Positions 2,278 to 54,400 of a DNA stretch of 64,000 bases are shown one piece after another. Origin of the DNA: Paenirhizobium naphthalenivorans (GTDB taxonomy: Bacteria; Pseudomonadota; Alphaproteobacteria; Rhizobiales; Rhizobiaceae); the NCBI RefSeq assembly GCF_007992095.1, contig NZ_BJZP01000013.1, positions 1-64,000 on the forward strand, read 5' to 3'. Positions within the stretch are counted from its first letter, which is position 1. Every line of letters starts with the position of its first letter. The notes beneath the pieces were generated by a model that saw nothing but the letters and a program-made list of their open reading frames with translations, was not told the origin of the DNA and did no database searches. The position numbers and the translations under genes are program-made.

Positions 2278-2732
2278 CGCACAGGGATGCCTGCATGACG
2301 CATAGGCGGCATCGATCTGCTCTTCCGGCGTCGTCCGGGGAGACGTGACACCGGAAGGCTTGGCTGGGCTGTCGTTCTCTTCTGCTACCGCGCCTTCGTT
2401 CCGGTAGAACTCGCGGAACTCAGGCTCCTACATGAGCACAGCCACGTCGATGCGTTCCGGGGACGTCGTCAGCAGTGCCCTGCCCTTCTCCGTCGCCACA
2501 AAGCGACCGCGCGCCGGCGAAGCGATCAGCCCGGCTTTGCTCATGTGGAATTTCGCCCAGTGTATGCGATTGTGCAGCAAACGCTGGCGGCCGCTTGGCA
2601 GAAGCTCGTCCCGCTCTGCCTGGGTCAATCCAAGATCATTGGCGACGCGTTCCGAAACATCAGCCACGCGGGTCTCCCCTCCGCGGCAAGCCGAAGAACC
2701 GGAAGCATGAGGGTCTGGTAGTCAGGTATCAT
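2278..2732 (-). pseudogene. Mrr-type restriction protein, N-terminal domain, broken
   Basis: An ATG at 2730-2732 starts MIPDYQTLMLPVLRLAAEG, then the frame shifts by one base near 2676. The continuing frame encodes TRVADVSERVANDLGLTQAE, LLPSGRQ, a segment ending KAGLIASPARGRF and RALLTTSPERIDVAVLM, followed by an in-frame TAG, then EPEFREFYRNEG and a TPEEQIDAAY segment. This is the winged-helix N-terminal domain of Mrr-family restriction endonucleases. The gene therefore has a one-base deletion, a nonsense codon, and loss of its whole nuclease domain at the IS3 end around 2278. It is a dead remnant beside the active restriction operon. Confidence 0.75.
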
Positions 2733-2766: not shown

Positions 2767-3834
2767 TCAAGCGGCCTTGATCAGGAAATTATGCATTCGA
2801 TCTGCGCGTGCTGGATCATTAAGTTCAGCCTCGATGAGATCAAAGAAGCTCGTTTTCAGCCGGCCAATCGTGGGGAAGGTTTCAAACGCACAGGTGCTTT
2901 TGAATCTTCCCACGGCCTCGATCACACCATCGATGGTCGAAACGTCTATATTATTGGCTCTTGCATATGTGATGCAGTGTTCGAGCCACTTCTTGTATTG
3001 CTTCTCCAGCACGCTTGACTTCAACCGCGCCTCAAGCTGAAAAATCCGCCGCCAGTTTCGCGACTTGTTATCTGGATTGAAGGTGATCACCCAGGTGGGT
3101 CCTTCTCCACCACCAGAAAGTACTGTGGTACCCTCAAGCGATAGAGTGACCTGCTCGTTCCCATAAGGATCAAGACAGTCCACTCTCTCATCGTGCTCGT
3201 TCAGCAATATGTTTTGGGCGCCTTTATAGGAACGATTACAGTTCGCTCCCATAGCGGTGAGATTGCGCAAGTTGACTCCGGCGAACGGGTACACCGATAC
3301 AGCAAGGTAATGATCCAAATCTGGATTGACTAGGTCGGGGTCTGCGGCCTCTATCGGCTCATAACCGCAAAAAGGACAAGTGCCATGCGACAGGTGCGCA
3401 TCCACTACCTGGTGGCACGTTGCTCGTATTGTGAGTTCCGAACCAGGAGTTTTCCAAGCTGAAAGCTTTTCGAACGCATGCTTAAACAGTTCCTTGGCTG
3501 CCTCATGCACCTCAGGGAAATCGTCTTTGATGCTGCAGCATGGCGTGGTGGACGTGAACACTGCCGGCAGGTTGTTTTGCTGGATCAGGGCTGTAGACAC
3601 CTGCGATTGCTGATCCGGCGTGAGAAAGCCGCATTTGGCAACGAACGCGTTATACAGTTCCTGGAACTTCGGACCTCGCATGAAGACTGCCCGATGCTCC
3701 TCAGAAATTGCGGCATCGAATTCAGGTGGAGCATTCCCTTGTTGCAGGGTTTCTAGCACCAGGCGAAGCGCGCTAAGAAGCGTTTCACTAATCCAGTTTT
3801 GTTCCGTAGCGGCGATAGGATAGGTAGCTAACAC
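2767..3834 (-). CDS. HNH endonuclease, PtuB-like partner of the upstream ATPase
   Basis: 355 residues. A Cys-x-x-Cys (CPFCGYEP, residues ~150-153), then DLDHYLAVSVYPF (~170-182), an Asn-Leu segment and GANCNRSYKG (~194-203) form an HNH-type metal-binding nuclease core. The N-terminal 145 residues are helical and have no recognised domain. The start codon lies one base after the stop of the ATPase gene, so the two are almost certainly co-transcribed and translationally coupled. An ATPase followed by an HNH protein is the Septu (PtuA-PtuB) arrangement, and here it is the tail of a Type I restriction operon. Role in anti-phage defence is inference. Base composition looks less GC-rich than the core genome, consistent with transfer. 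Confidence 0.7.
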   Translation of the reverse strand: MLATYPIAATEQNWISETLLSALRLVLETLQQGNAPPEFDAAISEEHRAVFMRGPKFQELYNAFVAKCGFLTPDQQSQVSTALIQQNNLPAVFTSTTPCCSIKDDFPEVHEAAKELFKHAFEKLSAWKTPGSELTIRATCHQVVDAHLSHGTCPFCGYEPIEAADPDLVNPDLDHYLAVSVYPFAGVNLRNLTAMGANCNRSYKGAQNILLNEHDERVDCLDPYGNEQVTLSLEGTTVLSGGGEGPTWVITFNPDNKSRNWRRIFQLEARLKSSVLEKQYKKWLEHCITYARANNIDVSTIDGVIEAVGRFKSTCAFETFPTIGRLKTSFFDLIEAELNDPARADRMHNFLIKAA

Positions 3835-3835
3835 G

Positions 3836-5443
3836 TTACTTCTGTTTCTTTAGCTCAAAGAGTCGATCTGCAAGCAACGCCTTCTCTACCGACGACCCCA
3901 GCCGCGGCATTTCGCGCTCTATGTCCTCGATGGATCCAGTCTCTTTTAGTTCGTGGATCTTCTCCTGCGCCAGTTCCGAAATCGGAGGATCCACGTCGAA
4001 GCAGTGACTCAGAATGGTGTCGTAAGTCGCGCCGAAGGTCTCAATCTCTGGTTTACGAGCTGAAAGCGTGTCTTCCACCTTGGAGAATATTCGTACCTGA
4101 TCGCGATGCATGTCCGAGGGAACGAACGGGGCGTGGGTGGTTAGAATAAATTCCTGACTTCCTAGACCTTGAACTGGAAGAGACATGATTCGTGTGACCA
4201 GCTTCGCGCGCCACTGGGGATTGAAGTGAGATTCAGGCTCATCCAGTAGAAACAACGTGTTCGGATCGCGGAACATGGCGACTATGCCGAAAAGCTGTGC
4301 CTGTTGGTGCTCACCATCAGAGAGCGATACGTAGTCAACGTCCGACGTCTGCCCGGAAGGCCCAGTCTTCGTAAACCGCACTTCCTCGATCTTAAAGACC
4401 TTCATTTCGTCCTGAGGCTCGGGAAGCTTCGAGGCAAACTTCCGGGTCTTGAGGTTCTTCTTCAAGCGCACCCGCGCCGGTTTCGGAATCATCAGATCAT
4501 TGAGCATCGCAAGCTTGTGAAGCGATCGATAGAGCTCAATTGCGCTGGACCAAAATGTCGCGAACGCCTTGCGGCTTTCGCCGTCTACCAGATAATCGAG
4601 TGTGTAGAGTTCCCGTTTGATATCGTAGTCCCAGCAGGTCGCGGCGCCGCAAAGTTGGCGCACGTAACGCTCCAACTCATCCGTAAGCTGTATACCCTTT
4701 CGCGCAGGGTTCTTTCCCTTAACCTTAGGAGCCTGCGGATGGTTGAATTGGATCACAAGACGGAAAGAGCGCAAGGAGGAGAGATTTGCATGTCTGACCA
4801 GCTCAGTTTGCACAGTTGCTGGTGCGACCATCAAGTTGGCGACCAGGACCTCAAGGTGAGTTGAATAGTCGAGGAGCACCAAGCGGTTGTCTGGAACGAC
4901 CGCATCAGCCTGATTCTTTGCGGCATTTGCGACCGACGCGGCATAGCCTGAACGACTGATGTAAAAGGGGAGGCTCAAAGTCTCATTATCGCCAGATGTA
5001 TAGGCGACGACAAGAGTAGGAAGATGTCGACCGAACTCAGGATGATGATTGTCGGCCAAAGATTCGTACCCGTCCTCTCCCCTGATCTCCATTTGCATCT
5101 TGCCGATACGCCCAGACGGGTCTCTCGCTCTGCTGAGTTTTACACGTCTAGTCCCGGCAGCGTCGCCTTCAACCTTCACCTCATAAATGATTTCAAAAAG
5201 CAGGCTTGGATTGGCAACCGTGGCCTCCTCCTCAGGCCGATGCTCGTGCCATGCAGATTGGAAAATCTCTGAAATGATCTGAAGAAACTGAGATTTTCCG
5301 GTTCCATTTCTGCCAAGAAGGCACATAGGCAAGAAGTCAGCATTGTCACGCTCTGCGCGAGGGCGGAACAAGTCGATATCCAAGCTGTCGAGTAACCCCC
5401 CGCAACTGGCCGCCTCGAAGATTTTGACTCGAACGATCTTCAT
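3836..5443 (-). CDS. Restriction-associated ABC/AAA-type ATPase (PtuA-like)
   Basis: 535 residues. Walker A GRNGTGKS at 44-51, an ABC-like signature LSDGEHQQ near 373-380, Walker B TLFLLDEPESHFN near 394-406 and a TTHAP switch near 434 identify an overcoming-lysogenization-defect/SMC-like ATPase of the kind found as PtuA and as the AAA ATPase associated with Type I restriction systems. All catalytic motifs are present. Its ATG overlaps the hsdS stop by four bases (ATGA) and its stop is one base from the HNH gene, tying it to both. Such ATPases usually sense a phage cue or DNA state and license the partner nuclease. That role here is inferred. Confidence 0.8.
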   Translation of the reverse strand: MKIVRVKIFEAASCGGLLDSLDIDLFRPRAERDNADFLPMCLLGRNGTGKSQFLQIISEIFQSAWHEHRPEEEATVANPSLLFEIIYEVKVEGDAAGTRRVKLSRARDPSGRIGKMQMEIRGEDGYESLADNHHPEFGRHLPTLVVAYTSGDNETLSLPFYISRSGYAASVANAAKNQADAVVPDNRLVLLDYSTHLEVLVANLMVAPATVQTELVRHANLSSLRSFRLVIQFNHPQAPKVKGKNPARKGIQLTDELERYVRQLCGAATCWDYDIKRELYTLDYLVDGESRKAFATFWSSAIELYRSLHKLAMLNDLMIPKPARVRLKKNLKTRKFASKLPEPQDEMKVFKIEEVRFTKTGPSGQTSDVDYVSLSDGEHQQAQLFGIVAMFRDPNTLFLLDEPESHFNPQWRAKLVTRIMSLPVQGLGSQEFILTTHAPFVPSDMHRDQVRIFSKVEDTLSARKPEIETFGATYDTILSHCFDVDPPISELAQEKIHELKETGSIEDIEREMPRLGSSVEKALLADRLFELKKQK

Positions 5444-7113
5444 TGCTCTCGCCTTCTGAGCGACATCGTTGACTGCTGTTCGTCAAAGACCTGCCGCAAC
5501 GGTGCGTTTTCATCAGAAAGCAAGGCGAACACCGCGTCCTTCAGGTCATCATAGCTTCCGCTAAACTCGCTCCTCAGGTCTTGGAAACTGATACCGTCGT
5601 GGGGCCAATCCGGAAGTTTCGCGTTCAGGAAATCTCTCGCTGTCAACATCGCGCTCGTCCGCTTCACTGCTCTCTTCTTTACTTTCGGTGCCGCCTCGTG
5701 CTCGGCGCGGATGCGGGCGAGCAGGAGTTCGGCGGGTTCGTCGTTTTCGTCCTGGGGGACCAGTTCGCCGCGGAAGGCTTTGGCCAGGATCGCCTCGTCC
5801 AGCCGGCCCACCAGCTCCAGCGCGCGCTTTGCCTCTTTCGCCAGCCGGTCGATCTTGGCGAAGGCGGATTCGATGCGGCGGACGATTTCGTGTTGTTCTT
5901 CGAGGGGAGCGAGACAAATCTGCATCGCGCGGACTTCGGGAAAATAGATGGTTGTGTGAGTGGTCCCCTTGCCGAACTCTCGGATGTCGTCGCCCTCTGC
6001 CATCAAGGCATACATGAGAAATTTCGGCACCAAGGCTTCTGTGCATGTCCAGGTGACGAAATCCTGACTGGTTGCCATGGGTTTGCCCATGATTGTCACA
6101 TATCCAACGGAGGCAGTTCGGGACAGGCAAACAGTTCCGGCCGGCAAGAGTCGCGCCGCGGAGTTGGCAAGACCTTCTTCGTTCGTGGTCTGGATCGTCT
6201 CTTCGATAATCCTTCCATGATTTGCACCTGCGTCCTTGATGCCGATCCATGGGATTTCACCGTCCCACCACTCTGGATGCGACCGGCTTGGAGTGTGCCC
6301 CGTTTCCTGTCGAGAGATACGGCTCAGCGGTACCCATTGCCATTTTGGAGGTGCCCCGCGAGCCGGAGAATTAATAGCCAATGCCGCCTTCCCCTGAATC
6401 ACTCTGTCAGTCGCCTCCCTGCCACCTTTCGGCTGAGGCGGCGTCGGGGTGCGATCGATCAAATCGGACGCGGTTTGAAGGTCAGCTCTTTTGGTACGCC
6501 AAGCGGATGTCATCGCTCCTTGAAAGGCAGACCTGAGCACGGCCTGCTTGTAGCGGGAGACGAGGGTTTCGATGCGGGCGAGTTCGGTACGGGCACGGGC
6601 GGATTTCAAGTTCAGCGCATCCAGCTTGGCCACGATACGCTTTTGCTCGACCAGGGGTGGAAGGGAAAGTGATATTGAGGCCAGAGCGGATTGAGGAAGG
6701 TGCTTTATTGTTGTCCCAGTGAAGTGGCGCTGAAGGTCGCCGTTCTGCGCCATCAACCGTAACGCCTTCGCCAGCAGGGTTGCATCGACGCCCCCGTATG
6801 GACGTAGACGCATTAGGGCTTTCTGGAACTTTATGTCCGTCGGCCCATACTGCCATACGGTACAGCGGCCTGGTTCTCCGCCTTCGCACACCAACAAGTC
6901 ACCATCGCGAATTCCGAATGGCTCAAGCTCGTCGTCAGTAAAGCGCATCTCCAGAATATCGTCCAAGGCGACACGGTCCCATCGCACATTCACATTCCGG
7001 AGGTAGGGGCGATGCTGCCCCTTGTTTTTCTCTTTGTCGAGCATCTTGCCCAACTTGATTTCAGAGATGTCAGCGAACGTCGCCTCAACCCACCCCTTCG
7101 GCAACTCGCTCAT
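5440..7113 (-). CDS. hsdS: Type I restriction-modification specificity subunit HsdS
   Basis: 557 residues with two target-recognition domains (about 1-150 and 240-400). Each is followed by a conserved helical spacer: LVEQKRIVAKLDAL near 155-170 and LEEQHEIVRRIESAF near 400-415. HsdS dictates the DNA sequence methylated and restricted by the complex. The protein is ~100 residues longer than common HsdS subunits. After the second spacer and a basic linker (KVKKRAVKRT) there is an extra C-terminal segment from SAMLTARDFLN to the end, perhaps a small winged-helix domain. The start overlaps the hsdM stop by four bases and the stop overlaps the ATPase start by four. The recognition site cannot be predicted from sequence alone. 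Confidence 0.93.
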   Translation of the reverse strand: MSELPKGWVEATFADISEIKLGKMLDKEKNKGQHRPYLRNVNVRWDRVALDDILEMRFTDDELEPFGIRDGDLLVCEGGEPGRCTVWQYGPTDIKFQKALMRLRPYGGVDATLLAKALRLMAQNGDLQRHFTGTTIKHLPQSALASISLSLPPLVEQKRIVAKLDALNLKSARARTELARIETLVSRYKQAVLRSAFQGAMTSAWRTKRADLQTASDLIDRTPTPPQPKGGREATDRVIQGKAALAINSPARGAPPKWQWVPLSRISRQETGHTPSRSHPEWWDGEIPWIGIKDAGANHGRIIEETIQTTNEEGLANSAARLLPAGTVCLSRTASVGYVTIMGKPMATSQDFVTWTCTEALVPKFLMYALMAEGDDIREFGKGTTHTTIYFPEVRAMQICLAPLEEQHEIVRRIESAFAKIDRLAKEAKRALELVGRLDEAILAKAFRGELVPQDENDEPAELLLARIRAEHEAAPKVKKRAVKRTSAMLTARDFLNAKLPDWPHDGISFQDLRSEFSGSYDDLKDAVFALLSDENAPLRQVFDEQQSTMSLRRREQ

Positions 7114-8645
7114 TCCGCCGCCTCCGGCAGATCATCGCTGAGCTCCGCCATCAGCGCCTCGATCTCCAGCGTCGCGGCCTGCAAATGGCCGAGAATGGCG
7201 GCGGCGATGTCGTCGGGTTCGATGAGGCCTTCTTCCGCTTCTTCCTCCGCCTCGCGCAACCAGGCGATATCGAGATTGTCGCCGCGGGCGGCGATGGCCT
7301 CGCGGCTGAACTGGCGCCAACGGCCGGTCTCGCCTTCATCCGGGCCGCGTTCCCTGCCATAAGGGTCCTTGCCGAAAGCCTGTTCGAAGCCTTCGAAATG
7401 GCTTTCCGTCAGCGGCGTCGTCTTGCCGAATTTCGGCATCTGGGCGCGCAGGTCATAGATCCAGACGGCTTTGGTGTTGGCGCTCTCGGTCTTGGCCCTC
7501 GTCAGGAAGATGACATTGGTCTTGACGCCTTGCGCATAAAAAATGCCGGTCGGCAGGCGCAGGATGGTGTGCAGATCGCACCAATCCATCATCATCCGGC
7601 GCAGTTCGCGCCCACGGCCGTCTTCGAAGAGGACGTTATCGGGCACGACGATCGCCGCGCGGCCACCGGGTTGAAGCGCGCGGATGCAGTGTTCGACAAA
7701 GGGGAGCTGGTAGGAGGAGACGTTTGCGGTGACGGAGAGGTCATCGCGGGTCGGGGCGCCGCCTGCCGGGCCAAAGGGCGGGTTGGTGAGGATAAGATTG
7801 GCGCGGCCGAGGGTCTTGCCCTTGTCGGAGAGCGTGTCGCCGAGATCGACATGGTCGCCGTCGATGTCGTGCAAATAAAGGTTCATCAAAAGCAGGCGCA
7901 GCGTGCCCGGCACGTTTTCCATGCCGTGGATGGCGCGGCGCTTCTGGAACTCCTGTTCCTTTTCGCCGAGATCCAGATAGTCGTCGGTGCGCGCCTTCAT
8001 GTACCGATCGGCGGCGATCAGGAAGCCGCCCGTGCCGGCGGCGGGATCCTGGATCACTTCGCCGGGCTGTGGCTGCATGAGGCGGACCAGAAGCTCGATC
8101 AGCACGCGGGGGGTAAAATACTGGCCTGCGCCACGCTTGGTTTCTTCCGCGTTCTTCTGCAGCAGGCCTTCATAGAGATCGCCGAACTGGTCGCGCTCTT
8201 CGGAGAACCAGTCGAGCTCATCGATGGCGGTGACCAGCGTCGTCAGGTTCTGCGGCTCACGCAGGAAGGTGGAGGCGTTGTCGAAGATCTTTTGCACCAT
8301 GTCCGGCAGCGGACGGGCATCGGCATAACGCTTTCGCTCTTCCGGGCTGGCGTTTTCGCCGGGTGGCGAAAGGAGAACATCGTCTTCGCCAAGCCGTGTG
8401 CTGGCGGCGCCGAGGGTGACAAGGACCTTGCGGTAATGCTCGAGCTTCGCCAGACCGTTGGCCGCGACCAGATCCGTCCAGCGCATGCTCTTCGGCAGGC
8501 TGCCTGTCTCGCGGTTGCGCTCGGCCATCATCTTCAGAAACAGCAGATAGGTCAGCTCGGTGACATATTGCTGATAGGTGATGCCGTCCTTGCGCAGGAC
8601 CGTGCAGAGGCGCCAGAGTTTCTGGACGATGGCATTGGCATTCAT
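7110..8645 (-). CDS. hsdM: Type I restriction-modification DNA methyltransferase subunit HsdM
   Basis: 511 residues. An N-terminal helical HsdM domain precedes the N6-adenine methyltransferase core. The AdoMet motif DPAAGTGGFL lies near 199-208, the catalytic NPPF near 287-290, and a GQYFTP motif just before the AdoMet site. It methylates adenine in the HsdS-specified target to protect host DNA. It overlaps hsdS by four bases and lies 79 bases downstream of hsdR. It is full length with all motifs intact. Confidence 0.96.
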   Translation of the reverse strand: MNANAIVQKLWRLCTVLRKDGITYQQYVTELTYLLFLKMMAERNRETGSLPKSMRWTDLVAANGLAKLEHYRKVLVTLGAASTRLGEDDVLLSPPGENASPEERKRYADARPLPDMVQKIFDNASTFLREPQNLTTLVTAIDELDWFSEERDQFGDLYEGLLQKNAEETKRGAGQYFTPRVLIELLVRLMQPQPGEVIQDPAAGTGGFLIAADRYMKARTDDYLDLGEKEQEFQKRRAIHGMENVPGTLRLLLMNLYLHDIDGDHVDLGDTLSDKGKTLGRANLILTNPPFGPAGGAPTRDDLSVTANVSSYQLPFVEHCIRALQPGGRAAIVVPDNVLFEDGRGRELRRMMMDWCDLHTILRLPTGIFYAQGVKTNVIFLTRAKTESANTKAVWIYDLRAQMPKFGKTTPLTESHFEGFEQAFGKDPYGRERGPDEGETGRWRQFSREAIAARGDNLDIAWLREAEEEAEEGLIEPDDIAAAILGHLQAATLEIEALMAELSDDLPEAAE

Positions 8646-8724
8646 GGCGTGATTCTCATCTGATCCGGGATCGTGATTGCGGTTGTAGCGATCGGCCGTC
8701 GATGGTCAACGACGGCCTCAACGT

Positions 8725-11700
8725 TCAGGCGGCGGGCGGTGCCCAGATCGCCTCGTTGAAAGCGTGCAGCACCTCGTCGAGCTCGCCGTCGAACTCCTGC
8801 GCGATGCGCTTGAAGCCGCCCTTGTCGGCAAAGGCGCCCTGGTCGAGCAGGGTCGGATCCGCCACCGGCTTGTCCTTTAGGGCGCGACCGATGCGGCGCA
8901 GCCATTCCTTCTGCTTCTGCGTCCAGGGCCTCGAGGCCTCGATCTTGACGATCGCGTTGTCAACGCGGGTGGCATAGGGGATCAGCGGATCGCCAAGGGC
9001 CGCCTGGCGGACGAAGCCGATGATATGGGCGGCGATATCGGCATTGCGGGCGCGGCCGTAAGCGGCGCGCAGCATGGCTTCGGAATAGTTCTTCTCGTCG
9101 AGCAGGCCGGCGAGCTCGGAGAGTTCCTTGCGGGTTAGGTCGCGCGGGCGCTGGGTGACGGCGATCAGCGCCGGGACCTGGTTCATGTTCTCGCGCACGA
9201 AGCGTTCGAAGCCGGTGATGTAATCCTCCGGCGTCGTGTTCTTGCCAAAAATCTCCTCGATGCGCAGCAGCTCGTCCTCATGGGTGGAGATGACGACGCC
9301 ATCGTTCTTACCCGTGGTGAGCGGGCGGCGTTCGAGCAGCTCAACGGAGCGAGGATGGGCGGCCAGCCAGTCCTGCAACTCGGCACCGGAGCGGGTGGAA
9401 AGCCGCTGCAGTGCCGTGTCGGGGCTTTCGCCCACGTGGCGCTCTAAGCTTTCGCGGGTCTCGGCATCCATGCGCTTGATCAGGCTGCGCATGCGCACGA
9501 TGACCTGGGCTGCGACCCAGCTCTTGTCCTCTTGCGTTTCCGCATTTTGCAGATCCGTCACGAGCTGGCCGAGGGCTATATCCGGCTTGACCACGACCGG
9601 GCGCATGTCGCTCATCTCCTGCAGCTCGGCATAGAGATCGACGGCGTCGAAGATGCGGAAATGCTCCTTGCCGATGTCGGGGCAAAGGCGCGTGGCGCGG
9701 CCAATCATCTGGTCATAGAGGATTCGGCTCTTGACCCTGCGGACGAAGACGAGATTGCAGATCGAGGGCACGTCGACGCCGGTGGTGAGTAGGTCGACGG
9801 TGACGACATATTTGGGGTAGGGGTCGTTCTTGAACTTCAGGATCAGATCGTCGGTCTTGTCGACAGTCCCGGTGATCTTCATCACCATGCCGTGCGGCAC
9901 GTTTTCCTTGCCGTATTCCTCCTGCAGCTCCTCGACCAGCAGGCGCACGATGTCGTCGGCATGGGTATCGCGGGCGGCGAAGATCAGCGTCTTGCCGGGC
10001 TTCGACGGCGGAATTTCGGTGGCGATGGCGCGGCAGACGATGCGGTTGAAGGCTTCGGAATAGACGCGCCTGTTGAAGTCGGCGAGGTCGTAATCGAGCG
10101 AGACTTCGTCCGGCAGTTCGAAGAGATCGATCTGGCCTGTCTTGCGGTCGATGATCTCGACCTCCTCGCCACCCTCGAAATGAATGCCGGCCTCCGACAG
10201 CGCCGTGGTGATGCGCTTCGGCGGCAGGTGATCATTGAGGTAACCTTCGACGACGGCCTGGCGATAGCCGTAGTGGAAGACCGGGTGGCCGAAGATCTCG
10301 CGGGTGTGGAGCGCGGGTGTGGCCGTCAGCGCCACCTTCACGGCGTCGAAGTAATCGAGGATCTGGCGATAGGCCGACTGGTAATCGTCGATGTTGCGAA
10401 AGCCGATATCGCTTTCGCGGAGCTCCGCATCCAGCGTGTAGCCGCGATGGGCTTCGTCCACGATGATGCAGTCGAAGGTACCGGGTGAGGGGCGCTTGGC
10501 CGGGTCCGGCTCGTTCAGGATGCGGGCGATCAGCGACTGGACGGTCGCGACCTGCACCTGGTCCTCATCCTGCGGCAGCTTCTGCTCGAGCCCGGCGACC
10601 TTGTAGATCTGGGCGAAGTTCAGCATGCCCTCGATCTCGGTGGTTTCCAGGGCGTCGCTTGTCTGCCGGCCCAGCGCCTTGCGGTCAACGAGGAAGAGGA
10701 TGCGGCGGAAGCGCTTGTGCTTCAGTAGGCGATACATCAGCGCAATCGCCGTGCGCGTCTTGCCGGTGCCGGTCGCCATGGAGACGAGAATGTCGCGCCG
10801 GCCAGTCACCACGGCATTCTCGATCGCGGCAATCGCCTCTTCCTGGTAGGGGCGCATGCGGCCCTTGCCGAAGCTCTCTTCGGCGAGGCCCTGCGCGGCG
10901 GCGTCGAGATCCGTCTCAAGGATATCGACGAGGTCCTTGGGCGAGAACCAGGTTGTCAGCGGCCGCGGATGGTTCGTGTCGCGCCGCAGGTCGCGGAACC
11001 AGATGCCGGATTTGGTCTGCCATTGGCGCACGTATGGCCGGGCATTGGTGGCAAAAACGAAGGGCACACGGAAGGGCTCATTAAGCCCGTGTTTCCAGGG
11101 GCCATGCGGATGGCGATGTTCCGGCGGCAACTCGATGGTCCGAGCATAGCGCTCGGCCTGATGCAGGGTTGACGGCACGTCGACACTCTCGCGCTTCGCC
11201 TCGATCACAGCGACACAGGTGGTGCCAACGAAGAGGGCATAGTCTGCGCGGCCACCGTCCGATGGCCACTCGGCGATCGCGAGGTTGCGGCCATCCTCAG
11301 GCCGTGCGCCCGCCTGATAGGTTAGACGGTCGCTGTCCGCCTCCCAGCCAGCATCGGCAAGCTGGACGTCGATCAAGCGACGCGTCTGGCGCTCGTCGAG
11401 TTCCAGGCGGCTCGCGGCCTGAAGACCGGCCTGCTTGAACTCCATCTGCAATTGCTGCGGCTGGGCCTCGGCCGCCTTCTGCAGCTCGCCGAGCTTTCGG
11501 GAAAGTTCGGCCTGGTTGGCCTCCATCTCGATAGCCGTCTGTTCCCAGACAGCACTATCGGCCGAGGCCTGTCGGGCCAGCTCCTCGGCTGCGGCACGGG
11601 CCTTCGCGAGTTCTTCGGCAGAAGCATGGGCGGCGGCCAGATTCTCCTCAGCTTCCCGGACTTGCGCACGCAGGGCCACAAGCTCCAACTGCGTCGCCTG

Positions 11701-12135
11701 ATCGACATTCGCGGAGGCTCTGGGCGGGACGAAGGGACCCGGCTTGAAATTGGGATCGCGTCCATAGGTTCGGCGATACCAGACGCCGAGCGCGCGGCAG
11801 AATTTGAGCGCCGCGAGCGCCTCGGCGGGTGAGCCAGCCAGATTGTGGGTCGCATCGTTGCCGCTCTTGCGGACCGCATGGAAGATGTCAGCCACCTCGC
11901 GCGGCAAGACCTGCTGCGTCGCGAGCCGCCGAAGGAGGTCGTTCGTTGTCTCGCGCGCGGTAGCGTCATAGACGCCGGAGAGGGCTGCGATCTCCTTGAC
12001 CATGTGTTCGCCGAACTGGCGGCTCTTGATCAAGGAAGTATTGGCGTCATCGGCAAAGAAGCGCTCGGCCAGCGTGCCGAGGCGATGCAGCTCCGGGCTG
12101 ATCTCCTGCAGATGGTCGAAATTCAATGACGTCAT
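8725..12135 (-). CDS. hsdR: Type I restriction endonuclease/translocase subunit HsdR
   Basis: 1136 residues. An N-terminal DUF4145-like helical domain (~20-115) is followed by a long Ala/Glu-rich coiled coil (~150-235). A PD-(D/E)xK nuclease domain ends in VIEAKRE (~308-314). The SF2 motor has Walker A ATGTGKT (~453-459), DEAH (~557-560) and motif VI-type RVKSRILYDQMIGRATR, and an EcoEI-like C-terminal domain follows. It translocates DNA using ATP and cleaves unmodified DNA. Domain order resembles Type IB (EcoEI-like) enzymes. It is the first gene of the leftward hsdR-hsdM-hsdS-ATPase-HNH operon, and the 196-bp gap to the right should hold the promoter. No disruption is visible. Confidence 0.95.
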   Translation of the reverse strand: MTSLNFDHLQEISPELHRLGTLAERFFADDANTSLIKSRQFGEHMVKEIAALSGVYDATARETTNDLLRRLATQQVLPREVADIFHAVRKSGNDATHNLAGSPAEALAALKFCRALGVWYRRTYGRDPNFKPGPFVPPRASANVDQATQLELVALRAQVREAEENLAAAHASAEELAKARAAAEELARQASADSAVWEQTAIEMEANQAELSRKLGELQKAAEAQPQQLQMEFKQAGLQAASRLELDERQTRRLIDVQLADAGWEADSDRLTYQAGARPEDGRNLAIAEWPSDGGRADYALFVGTTCVAVIEAKRESVDVPSTLHQAERYARTIELPPEHRHPHGPWKHGLNEPFRVPFVFATNARPYVRQWQTKSGIWFRDLRRDTNHPRPLTTWFSPKDLVDILETDLDAAAQGLAEESFGKGRMRPYQEEAIAAIENAVVTGRRDILVSMATGTGKTRTAIALMYRLLKHKRFRRILFLVDRKALGRQTSDALETTEIEGMLNFAQIYKVAGLEQKLPQDEDQVQVATVQSLIARILNEPDPAKRPSPGTFDCIIVDEAHRGYTLDAELRESDIGFRNIDDYQSAYRQILDYFDAVKVALTATPALHTREIFGHPVFHYGYRQAVVEGYLNDHLPPKRITTALSEAGIHFEGGEEVEIIDRKTGQIDLFELPDEVSLDYDLADFNRRVYSEAFNRIVCRAIATEIPPSKPGKTLIFAARDTHADDIVRLLVEELQEEYGKENVPHGMVMKITGTVDKTDDLILKFKNDPYPKYVVTVDLLTTGVDVPSICNLVFVRRVKSRILYDQMIGRATRLCPDIGKEHFRIFDAVDLYAELQEMSDMRPVVVKPDIALGQLVTDLQNAETQEDKSWVAAQVIVRMRSLIKRMDAETRESLERHVGESPDTALQRLSTRSGAELQDWLAAHPRSVELLERRPLTTGKNDGVVISTHEDELLRIEEIFGKNTTPEDYITGFERFVRENMNQVPALIAVTQRPRDLTRKELSELAGLLDEKNYSEAMLRAAYGRARNADIAAHIIGFVRQAALGDPLIPYATRVDNAIVKIEASRPWTQKQKEWLRRIGRALKDKPVADPTLLDQGAFADKGGFKRIAQEFDGELDEVLHAFNEAIWAPPAA

Positions 12136-13166: not shown

Positions 13167-14258
13167 CTACCGATCACCAAGAAGCAGTACCCGGATGGAC
13201 TTCTTCTTGTACTCCTCGGCGTTTGCGTAGGCCAACACGATATCAAAGTCGATTTCAGTCTTGCCCCGCTGACATATATTCGCGATCAGTTCGTGCTGCT
13301 GCTTCTCGCTAACAGGGCCGTAGCGCTCGAAAGTCGTCCGCATATTGGCATGACCCATGTTCTGACTAAGCGCCTTTTGCTCGGCTAAAGTTACTGCCCA
13401 CTTGTCGATCATACTGGCAATGGTGTCTCGCAAACGGTGCGGCGTAAAGCGACGTACGCCCACCGCGGCGGCAGCGGCTGCCATGATATCTACGACGGCA
13501 TCATCGCTGGAGAGGAACTCCCAACCTGACTGATCCTGCGAACCGAATAAGCGTCGTTCACCACGCGGGAACAGTGGCGTTTCAGGATTAGTATCGAGCG
13601 AGGTCATTTCGGCAACCCAATCGATGACTATCTGTTCGAATTCCTTCCCGACAGGAAACCAGGCGGTCCGCATCGTTTTGCTGTTTTTGGTCGCGACCTG
13701 CTCTGCTGCCTGTTGATGGACTAACCGCCGCTCGCAATCGACGTGATTCAGACGCAAAGTGATCAACGCAGCGACTCGGACACCCGTCAGGTAAACGAAT
13801 GCGACCAACGCGCGATTTCGGCGCTGAAGGAAGCTATCCGTTGGCATTCAACCCACGACAGTGACCACTTCCTCATGCGTAGGGTAGGCTTTTTCGACTG
13901 GCGCATTTGCTATTTGGATCAGGTGCCTCGGCGCCGAGAAATAGTCCACCAGATCTTCCGGAATTTTGTCGTAACCTACCTGCTTACGCAGCCATCTGAA
14001 GAAGCCGCAGACGCTGGAAAAGGCGTGCACAATGGTCGAAGCTGATAGGGTTTTGCCGGAGTTGTCGCTTGCCTGCAGGCTCGTCTTGTACTGCACGATC
14101 TGTTCAATATTGACGCACCTGAAATCAACGTCGCCAGTTAGCTCGCAGAACCTCCAGATATGATGAAGAGCTGCGTCGACCGTCTTTTCATCTCGGCCTT
14201 TTCCTTCGAGGAGGTAAACTTGATATCGATAGATAACGAATGCGTTCGCATCGTTCAT
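13167..14258 (-). pseudogene. Tyrosine recombinase/integrase interrupted by an in-frame TGA
   Basis: Two consecutive segments in the same frame form one ~363-residue integrase. Residues 1-136 (from the ATG at 14258, with GGAG upstream) are the SAM-like core-binding domain. A TGA at 13848-13850 follows, and the next codon is ATG. The second segment carries the whole catalytic domain: Arg in LTGVRVAAL, HRLRD, GHANMRTTF and the nucleophile Tyr in ERYG. The stop falls in the linker where related integrases read sense. Either the gene is inactivated by a nonsense mutation, or the ATG allows a separate catalytic half, or the base is a sequencing error. It is the presumed integrase of the island ending at tRNA-Ser. 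Confidence 0.8.
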
Positions 14259-15511: not shown

Positions 15512-15601
15512 TGGCGGAGAGGGTGGGATTCGAACCCACGATACGGTTGCCCGTATGCCGCATTTCGAGTGCGGTGCTTTCGACCTCTCAGCCACCTCTC
15601 C
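15512..15601 (-). tRNA. tRNA-Ser(CGA)
   Basis: The minus strand folds as a class II tRNA. The acceptor is GGAGAGG/CCTCTCC, the anticodon loop CTCGAAA gives anticodon CGA (Ser, UCG codon), and there is a long variable arm and a TTCGAAT T-loop. Discriminator G and CCA are encoded at 15512-15515. The 3' end faces left towards the integrase module, the usual geometry for an island integrated at a tRNA 3' end. Confidence 0.97.
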
Positions 15602-48008: not shown

Positions 48009-48067
48009 AAACAGCCCCTCCTTTGCATGTTTAAATTCCGGGATAGGGCGTCATCTAGGTTACGCGT

Positions 48068-48163
48068 CTAATCCCTCCGCCGGTGTTAGCCGGATCAGGT
48101 TCCGCGGGTTGGCTTCACGCCTCTCAGCCATCGGTCCGTTTCCGGACAGAAGGCACCCCGTTA
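48068..48163 (-). promoter_or_regulatory. TPP riboswitch (THI element) controlling thiBPQ
   Basis: On the minus strand the conserved CTGAGA of the pyrimidine-sensing helix is followed by CCTGATCCGG and TAACACCGGCG-AGGGA, the diphosphate-sensing core. High TPP should lower expression of the uptake operon. The 3' edge lies ~60 nt before thiB, leaving space for a switch in ribosome access. Confidence 0.95.
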
Positions 48164-48361
48164 GAGCAGCAGAAGACATAGCGCCAAGGCAGGTCGCTGG
48201 CAAGCCGTCGGCCGGCGCGCGACCTGTCATCGAATGGCCAACACTTTGCCAACATATGCGCGCTAGACTGGAGCAAGGATCACCCGATTTTGCCGGCGTC
48301 ACATGGACAAGCGCGGCAGGCGTGGTATCTGGTTGCTCCGATACGGCGAGACAGAGACCGC

Positions 48362-54169: not shown

Positions 54170-54250
54170 CAGGCCGCATCGCCCGCAAGCTGCGGCGCAG
54201 CATGGTTTTTCATTGATCTTCCGCAGGAAGACGACTATCTAAAGCCGGTC

Positions 54251-54305
54251 CCGTGGTGATTTGGCCGGCCGGCTTGCAGCCACGTTAAAGAAGTCGCTAA
54301 AGGGG
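54251..54305 (+). promoter_or_regulatory. SAM-II riboswitch upstream of metA
   Basis: ccgtggtgatttggccg, then cggcttgcagccacg and ttaaagaagtcgctaaagg reproduce the conserved metA-type SAM-II pseudoknot. The stem gtgg/ccac, the GGTGATTT loop segment, GCTTGCAGCCACGTTAAA and the terminal GCTAAAGG are all in place. High SAM should block ribosome access to metA. The element ends ~95 nt before the ATG. Confidence 0.88.
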
Positions 54306-54400
54306 CCGAGGAAAGTCGTCATTTTCCCGAGCACCGGTCGCGATTTCTCGCCGCCGGTTTTATTTTGCGGTTTTTCCGCCAATGCTGGGAATGAGAAACG

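Follow-up and report, generated by a model that had tools for sequence, protein, structure and literature searches.

Organization of the hsd locus

The window analyzed here is a stretch of 64,000 nucleotides from Paenirhizobium naphthalenivorans, and it carries a type I restriction-modification operon in which two further genes follow hsdS. Its features, from upstream to downstream, are as follows.

8725-12135, minus strand: HsdR, 1136 aa, NF008521/PRK11448 type (NF008521, 1551 bits against a cut-off of 729; EcoEI_R_C and ResIII)
7110-8645, minus strand: HsdM, 511 aa (N6_Mtase, 1.3e-73; HsdM_N; motifs DPAAGTGGF and NPPF)
5440-7113, minus strand: HsdS, 557 aa (Methylase_S, 3e-29, in two stretches)
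5440-5673, minus strand: C-terminal extension of HsdS, approximately residues 480-557 (about 70 residues), a predicted winged helix
3836-5443, minus strand: PtuA-like ABC-type ATPase, 535 aa (TIGR04435, 404 bits against a cut-off of 300)
2767-3834, minus strand: predicted PtuB-like HNH nuclease, 355 aa, GTG start

HsdR, HsdM, and HsdS are all recognized by family profiles, which places the locus among type I restriction-modification systems. The first-pass annotation had described five genes lying head to tail with all catalytic motifs intact. The same coordinates and gaps were recovered here, the hsdR/hsdM/hsdS/ATPase/HNH junctions being +79, -4, -4, and +1 bp from both coordinates and junction sequences, with hsdS sharing 4 bp with hsdM at one end and 4 bp with the ATPase gene at the other. 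The HsdM motifs, the Walker A and other motifs of the ATPase, and the HNH residues are likewise all present. Promoter and terminator scans gave no excess over shuffled sequences (3 versus 3.2 and 9 versus 10.0, respectively).

An interrupted Mrr-type restriction fragment with a broken frame lies directly 3' of the HNH gene (2431-2731, minus strand; Mrr_N, 2.4e-23 for one piece), and a plus-strand open stretch at about 2090-2236 resembles the C-terminal end of an IS3-type transposase. Neither the Mrr fragment nor the HsdS extension had been remarked on in the first-pass annotation. Elsewhere in the window, a TPP riboswitch (48055-48170, minus strand) and a SAM-alpha riboswitch (54243-54321, plus strand) both exceed gathering scores.

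Next to the operon are an HTH gene and a tyrosine recombinase gene (13167-14258, minus strand), split into two open reading frames by an in-frame stop and neighboring a tRNA-Ser(CGA) gene (15512-15601). The split recombinase and the tRNA-Ser gene suggest a genomic island, and a search of the flanks for a repeat marking its ends found none. The genome contains one match to TIGR04435, and it is the only one of 60 genomes (itself and 59 relatives) in which the cut-off of this family is exceeded. The operon looks like a sporadic acquisition.

A PtuA/PtuB-like ATPase-HNH pair

The ATPase exceeds the curated cut-off of TIGR04435, “restriction system-associated AAA family ATPase,” in line with the first-pass comparison to restriction-associated AAA ATPases. 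The PADLOC PtuA profile PDLC00293 matches residues 39-504 at 1.3e-41, and the best PDB sequence matches are PtuA of a retron and of Septu (4.7e-9 and 2.6e-6). AriA is a weaker match in both the PADLOC and the PDB searches, and the retron Ec78 PtuA family (NF041760) gives 42 bits, far below its cut-off of 500. All 34 aligned ATPases share G44, N46, G47, G49, K50, and S51, LSDGEHQ at 374-380, D401, E402, and H437. The residues from G44 to S51 correspond to Walker A, and the protein belongs with ABC-type ATPases, not with SF2 translocases.

The HNH protein matched no Pfam family, and a PDB sequence search with its profile gave an unrelated best match (0.046). Its 19 PADLOC matches include weak ones to candidate families (best, 5.5e-8) and lack PtuB, so that the protein is not recognized as Septu PtuB by sequence. 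C153, C156, D174, H175, N191, C199, N200, and K204 are invariant in 48 of 48 HNH sequences. The three best structural matches of a confident model are PtuB proteins of retron complexes, aligned over 188 to 201 of the 355 residues, which points to a PtuB-like fold. The proposed resemblance of the pair to PtuA/PtuB is borne out by the PADLOC and PDB matches of the ATPase and by this model of the HNH protein.

Recurrence of the arrangement

Relatives were collected from named genomes through exact short patterns and a profile of 34 ATPases. At least 96 were found, and 78 distinct loci were analyzed; all locus counts refer to these 78 of at least 96, in which related loci are not independent. An hsdS gene was assigned upstream of the ATPase gene in 75 loci, and the remaining three comprise two contig edges and one locus with a remnant of the hsdS end. 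In 71 of the 78 loci, hsdS and the ATPase gene are separated by ≤2 bp (exactly -4 bp in 52). The HNH profile, which itself includes 38 of the 78 loci, matches in 71, and the seven misses are two contig ends (L056 and L087) and five Larkinella loci. Judging from record titles, the loci presumably belong to Pseudomonadota, Cyanobacteriota, Bacteroidota, Chloroflexota, Deinococcota, Myxococcota, Verrucomicrobiota, and Planctomycetota. With several phyla represented, the arrangement is more than chance. The 78 loci rule out both a random cluster and a peculiarity of this one genome, and the gene order that the first-pass annotation had singled out proved to be widely conserved.

The ATPase was found on plasmids in one of 72,556 records at 1e-50, from Sphingobium, where annotated hsdR, methylase, and subunit S genes are followed by that of a hypothetical protein. 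Two viral contigs also carry the ATPase, both with HsdR-profile matches, HsdM, HsdS with the C-terminal tail, and HNH. Ten loci (L089-L098) form a distant ATPase clade (24-34% identity), in which a PtuA-like ATPase lies behind hsdS and is accompanied by an HNH gene, without the HsdS tail. In one of these (L090), a Fic-domain gene lies between hsdR and hsdM. Two sphingomonad loci contain two open reading frames of 265 and 307 codons between hsdM and hsdS (L030, 6707-8424; L133, 5710-7427). The second is annotated as a GIY-YIG nuclease in L133, and the first appears by eye to be a probable membrane protein; hsdR is present in L133, and none is nearby in L030.

The five Larkinella loci (L063, L066, L070, L071, and L072) contain HsdM, tailed HsdS, and the ATPase, with neither HNH nor a nearby HsdR, and their ATPases are shorter by about 50 residues at the C terminus. 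On the ATPase tree these loci cluster together, probably reflecting one event. As these HNH-less ATPases lack the terminal residues, the C terminus of the ATPase is suggested to hold the HNH protein. No effector model explains the Larkinella loci, from which both HsdR and HNH are missing.

An HsdS extension linked to the ATPase

The C-terminal tail of HsdS was modeled by AF2 with a mean pLDDT of 81.6, and its structural matches are winged helices; the 50 matches listed are mostly transcription regulators, linker histones, and other nucleic-acid-linked proteins. The tail of the window HsdS has no Pfam match, and no Pfam family is common to more than 4 of 44 tails searched (best E value, 0.0053). 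The tail is present in 66 of 68 loci of the window's ATPase clade, the two misses being contig edges, and in none of the 10 loci of the distant clade; 43 of the 66 tail-positive loci are included in the tail profile, and the other 23 lie outside it. Among 385 genomes of the window's class, the tail and TIGR04435 occur in the same two genomes and are adjacent in both. Among 386 genomes of another phylum, TIGR04435 exceeds its cut-off in five and the tail is found in four, the fifth having a tail match at 7e-5 in a small search; all are adjacent. The tail occurs without TIGR04435 in none of the 771 genomes. In L053, it is encoded as a separate 71-aa open reading frame between hsdS and the ATPase gene.

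Distances between tails are better correlated by rank with those between ATPases (0.71) than with those between HsdM proteins (0.56) or the rest of HsdS (0.49), and the sign of these differences was kept in at least 98% of 1000 subsamples. Specificity domains recombine, which alone lowers the correlation of the tail with the rest of HsdS. The linkage and covariation of the two elements suggest that the tail may be a docking site for the ATPase. The description of the pair as “appended” understates the link, as the tail goes with this ATPase clade and is missing from the distant one.

Winged helices commonly bind DNA. The tail could bind DNA instead of the ATPase and so help the methyltransferase to hold DNA or to assemble; the ATPase and HNH protein would then form an independent Septu-like unit that only shares the transcript. 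The mostly nucleic-acid-linked structural matches listed agree with this alternative, but we regard it as very unlikely, given that the tail is missing from the distant clade, never occurs without TIGR04435 in the 771 genomes, tracks the ATPase more closely than HsdM, and is found in one locus as a free-standing reading frame next to the ATPase gene.

HsdR is optional

Loci were classed for HsdR in two cases: when a same-strand HsdR gene lay no more than 1.5 kb away, or when the available flank reached at least 5 kb on each side. The 66 rows comprise the window and 65 loci; 11 carry HsdR of the window type (IA; window included), 7 carry a second type, 31 carry none, and 17 could not be classed; no HsdR is therefore found nearby in 31 of 49 classed rows. 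HsdR genes 6 to 7 kb away in L025 and L052 were judged to be part of another operon. L076, L078, and L087 could not be placed on the tree because of their short length; HsdR is present in L087. On a quick tree of the ATPases, presence and absence of HsdR changed at least 10 times.

A tblastn search of the 31 HsdR-less loci for decayed HsdR, with 47 HsdR sequences at E ≤1e-4, returned the distant genes of L025 and L052 together with a 26-residue stretch of L038, and no remnant elsewhere. Whole-genome searches of 42 genomes found PF08463 in 10, PF04313 in 31, and neither in 11. These same 11 genomes gave no NF008521 match over the cut-off (two fell below it) and no TIGR00348 match at 1e-6. Seven of them are among the 31 rows (L022, L027, L032, L033, L071, L079, and L085), and the other four had too little flank to be classed (L026, L042, L043, and L080). 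The records of L027 and L032 are titled complete genome, and the others are drafts. L022 is a near relative of the window (72% ATPase identity). An HSDR_N match is present somewhere in 31 of the 42 genomes searched, and in these HsdR could act in trans.

Replacement of HsdR by another constant gene was considered: six neighbors in HsdR-less loci were examined, and the five with Pfam matches are all different (integrase, nucleotidyltransferase, Mrr, TniQ, and AbiJ type). The constant set is HsdM, tailed HsdS, the ATPase, and, except in Larkinella, the HNH protein. Over 17 rows, ATPase and HsdR distances correlate at 0.36, compared with 0.84 for HsdM and HsdR; within the 11 IA rows both correlations are weak (0.14 and 0.34, respectively).

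Because many relatives lack HsdR, the ATPase-HNH pair may be the real weapon. The main rival to the interpretation preferred below proposes that the pair is an alternative restriction subunit, replacing HsdR and cutting DNA that lacks the HsdM-HsdS mark, so that two cutters would coexist where HsdR is present. HsdR is absent beside 31 of 49 classed rows, and NPPF is kept in the HsdM of 29 of the 30 such loci that have an HsdM open reading frame (of 31), and the upstream neighbors reveal no constant substitute. The Septu of ATCC25922 is stated to act on nicked DNA (PMC11555353). We nevertheless consider this alternative rather unlikely. The ATPase is of the ABC type rather than an SF2 translocase, and the retention of HsdR in the window is left unexplained. 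In addition, hsdM is frame-broken in two HsdR-less loci whose records are titled complete genome (L032, 6983-8398; L039, 6840-8257), while hsdS, ATPase, and HNH are open. Attack on unmethylated host DNA would be hard to survive in such cells, which counts mildly against this alternative unless the breaks are sequence errors.

The first-pass annotation had suggested that the pair backs up failed restriction or senses restriction-generated ends. In this form the pair would be a guardian similar to PrrC, detecting inhibition of HsdRMS or the ends that it makes and stopping the cell. The hsd locus of EcoprrI includes PrrC, which becomes active once T4 Stp has inhibited the enzyme (PMC12707154); the pair is similarly placed within an hsd operon, and HsdR is present in the window. 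As a general role, this idea does not survive the survey. Backup of HsdR is not the general purpose of the system, because it is found in genomes without recognizable HsdR: none lies beside 31 of 49 classed rows, and searches with four families detect none in 11 of 42 genomes. The low ATPase-HsdR correlation is a slight further point, given that both correlations are weak within the IA rows. A guardian of HsdR is thus distinctly unlikely overall; a backup role in the window itself is possible, as HsdR is present there. The pair could also guard the methyltransferase instead of HsdR, a possibility that merges with the docked effector considered below.

A docked effector as the preferred interpretation

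With moderate confidence, we favor a PtuAB-like effector that would dock on the HsdM-HsdS methyltransferase and be gated by it, HsdR being an optional second weapon. HsdM-HsdS would act as a type I modification enzyme to which the effector is tethered: the C-terminal winged helix of HsdS would dock the PtuA-like ATPase, which in turn would hold the PtuB-like HNH nuclease. While the cell is at rest, the pair would be silenced by the methyltransferase complex, as PtuAB is by the reverse transcriptase and msDNA of a retron. Presumed triggers are an encounter of the complex with phage DNA in the wrong state or its seizure by a phage anti-restriction protein. The ATPase would then switch, and the HNH nuclease would attack nucleic acid, possibly tRNA or DNA, and stop the infection. 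Where present, as in the window, HsdR would be another weapon, separate from the pair but built on the same recognition subunit.

By analogy with retron PtuAB, Septu, and PrrC, the methyltransferase is inferred to act as guard, and the tail as tether. In retron-Eco7, the PtuAB toxin is neutralized by the reverse transcriptase and msr-msd and depletes tRNA-Tyr, and the authors leave open whether PtuAB cuts tRNA-Tyr directly (PMC11555353). One Septu cuts the variable loop of tRNA-Tyr and requires both the Walker residues of PtuA and the HNH residues of PtuB (PMC13096335). The targets given for PtuAB vary: retron-Eco7 and Septu EcB88 act on tRNA-Tyr, Septu ATCC25922 on nicked DNA, and retron-Eco4 probably not on tRNA (PMC11555353, PMC13096335). 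These differing targets count against the proposed reading.

Comparison with known systems

TIGR04435 covers the ATPase only, and the HNH partner and the HsdS tail belong to no Pfam family. The window ATPase exceeds the cut-off, and the relative on the Sphingobium plasmid is annotated accordingly beside hsdR and subunit S. Septu and type I-A retrons likewise combine an ATPase and an HNH protein, with PtuA homology and a PtuB-like model on the side of the pair studied here. Septu is a two-gene stand-alone system, whereas in 75 of the 78 loci listed here the ATPase gene is preceded by hsdS, and the partner in place of a retron is a methyltransferase. The window HNH protein (355 aa) is also longer than the PtuB chains of retron complexes (211-258 aa) and lacks a PtuB profile match. 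Both ATPase and nuclease activities are needed in Septu (PMC13096335).

PrrC is a single protein with an anticodon nuclease part, unlike the two proteins, HNH nuclease, and optional HsdR described here. An ABC-type ATPase and a nuclease encoded inside an hsd operon are common to both, and in EcoprrI the nuclease fires upon inhibition of the enzyme (PMC12707154). The restriction subunit that such a guardian would watch over is present in the window but is not constant among its relatives (absent beside 31 of 49 classed rows and from 11 of 42 genomes). PARIS (AriA-AriB) likewise combines an ABC ATPase with a nuclease and is activated by an anti-restriction protein; AriB is a TOPRIM nuclease (PMC12839542), whereas the partner in the window has HNH residues and a PtuB-like model.

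The set HsdM-HsdS-ATPase-HNH may have been described before, Krishnan et al. 2020 being the likeliest prior source. The link between the ATPase and restriction is already in NCBI annotation as TIGR04435. OLD-ABC/HNH dyads with modification systems, in BREX neighborhoods, are already in print, and the same paper refers to earlier reports of such couplings for ABC-anchored RM-like systems (PMC12839542). The literature searched, outside which most subscription journals fall, contained neither the accession TIGR04435 nor the phrase “restriction system-associated AAA,” and no mention of the HsdR-less arrangement or the HsdS tail. As far as this search extends, what is new is the tail on HsdS and its link with the ATPase, the resemblance of the modeled HNH protein to PtuB, and the high proportion of HsdR-less loci in the sample.

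Implications

Tentatively, these loci may represent their own class of modification-linked immunity, in which a methyltransferase takes the place of the retron in guarding a PtuAB-like effector, the winged helix of HsdS is the tether, and HsdR is an optional addition, repeatedly gained or lost. If the docked-effector interpretation is correct, type I modification enzymes would serve as a sensing platform for a PtuAB-type effector, beyond their partnership with HsdR. The unnamed HNH protein and the HsdS extension would gain a role, and a vague ATPase annotation would become a testable machine. Operons with hsdMS and without hsdR, now readily set aside as orphan methyltransferases or defective restriction systems, would then have to be reread.
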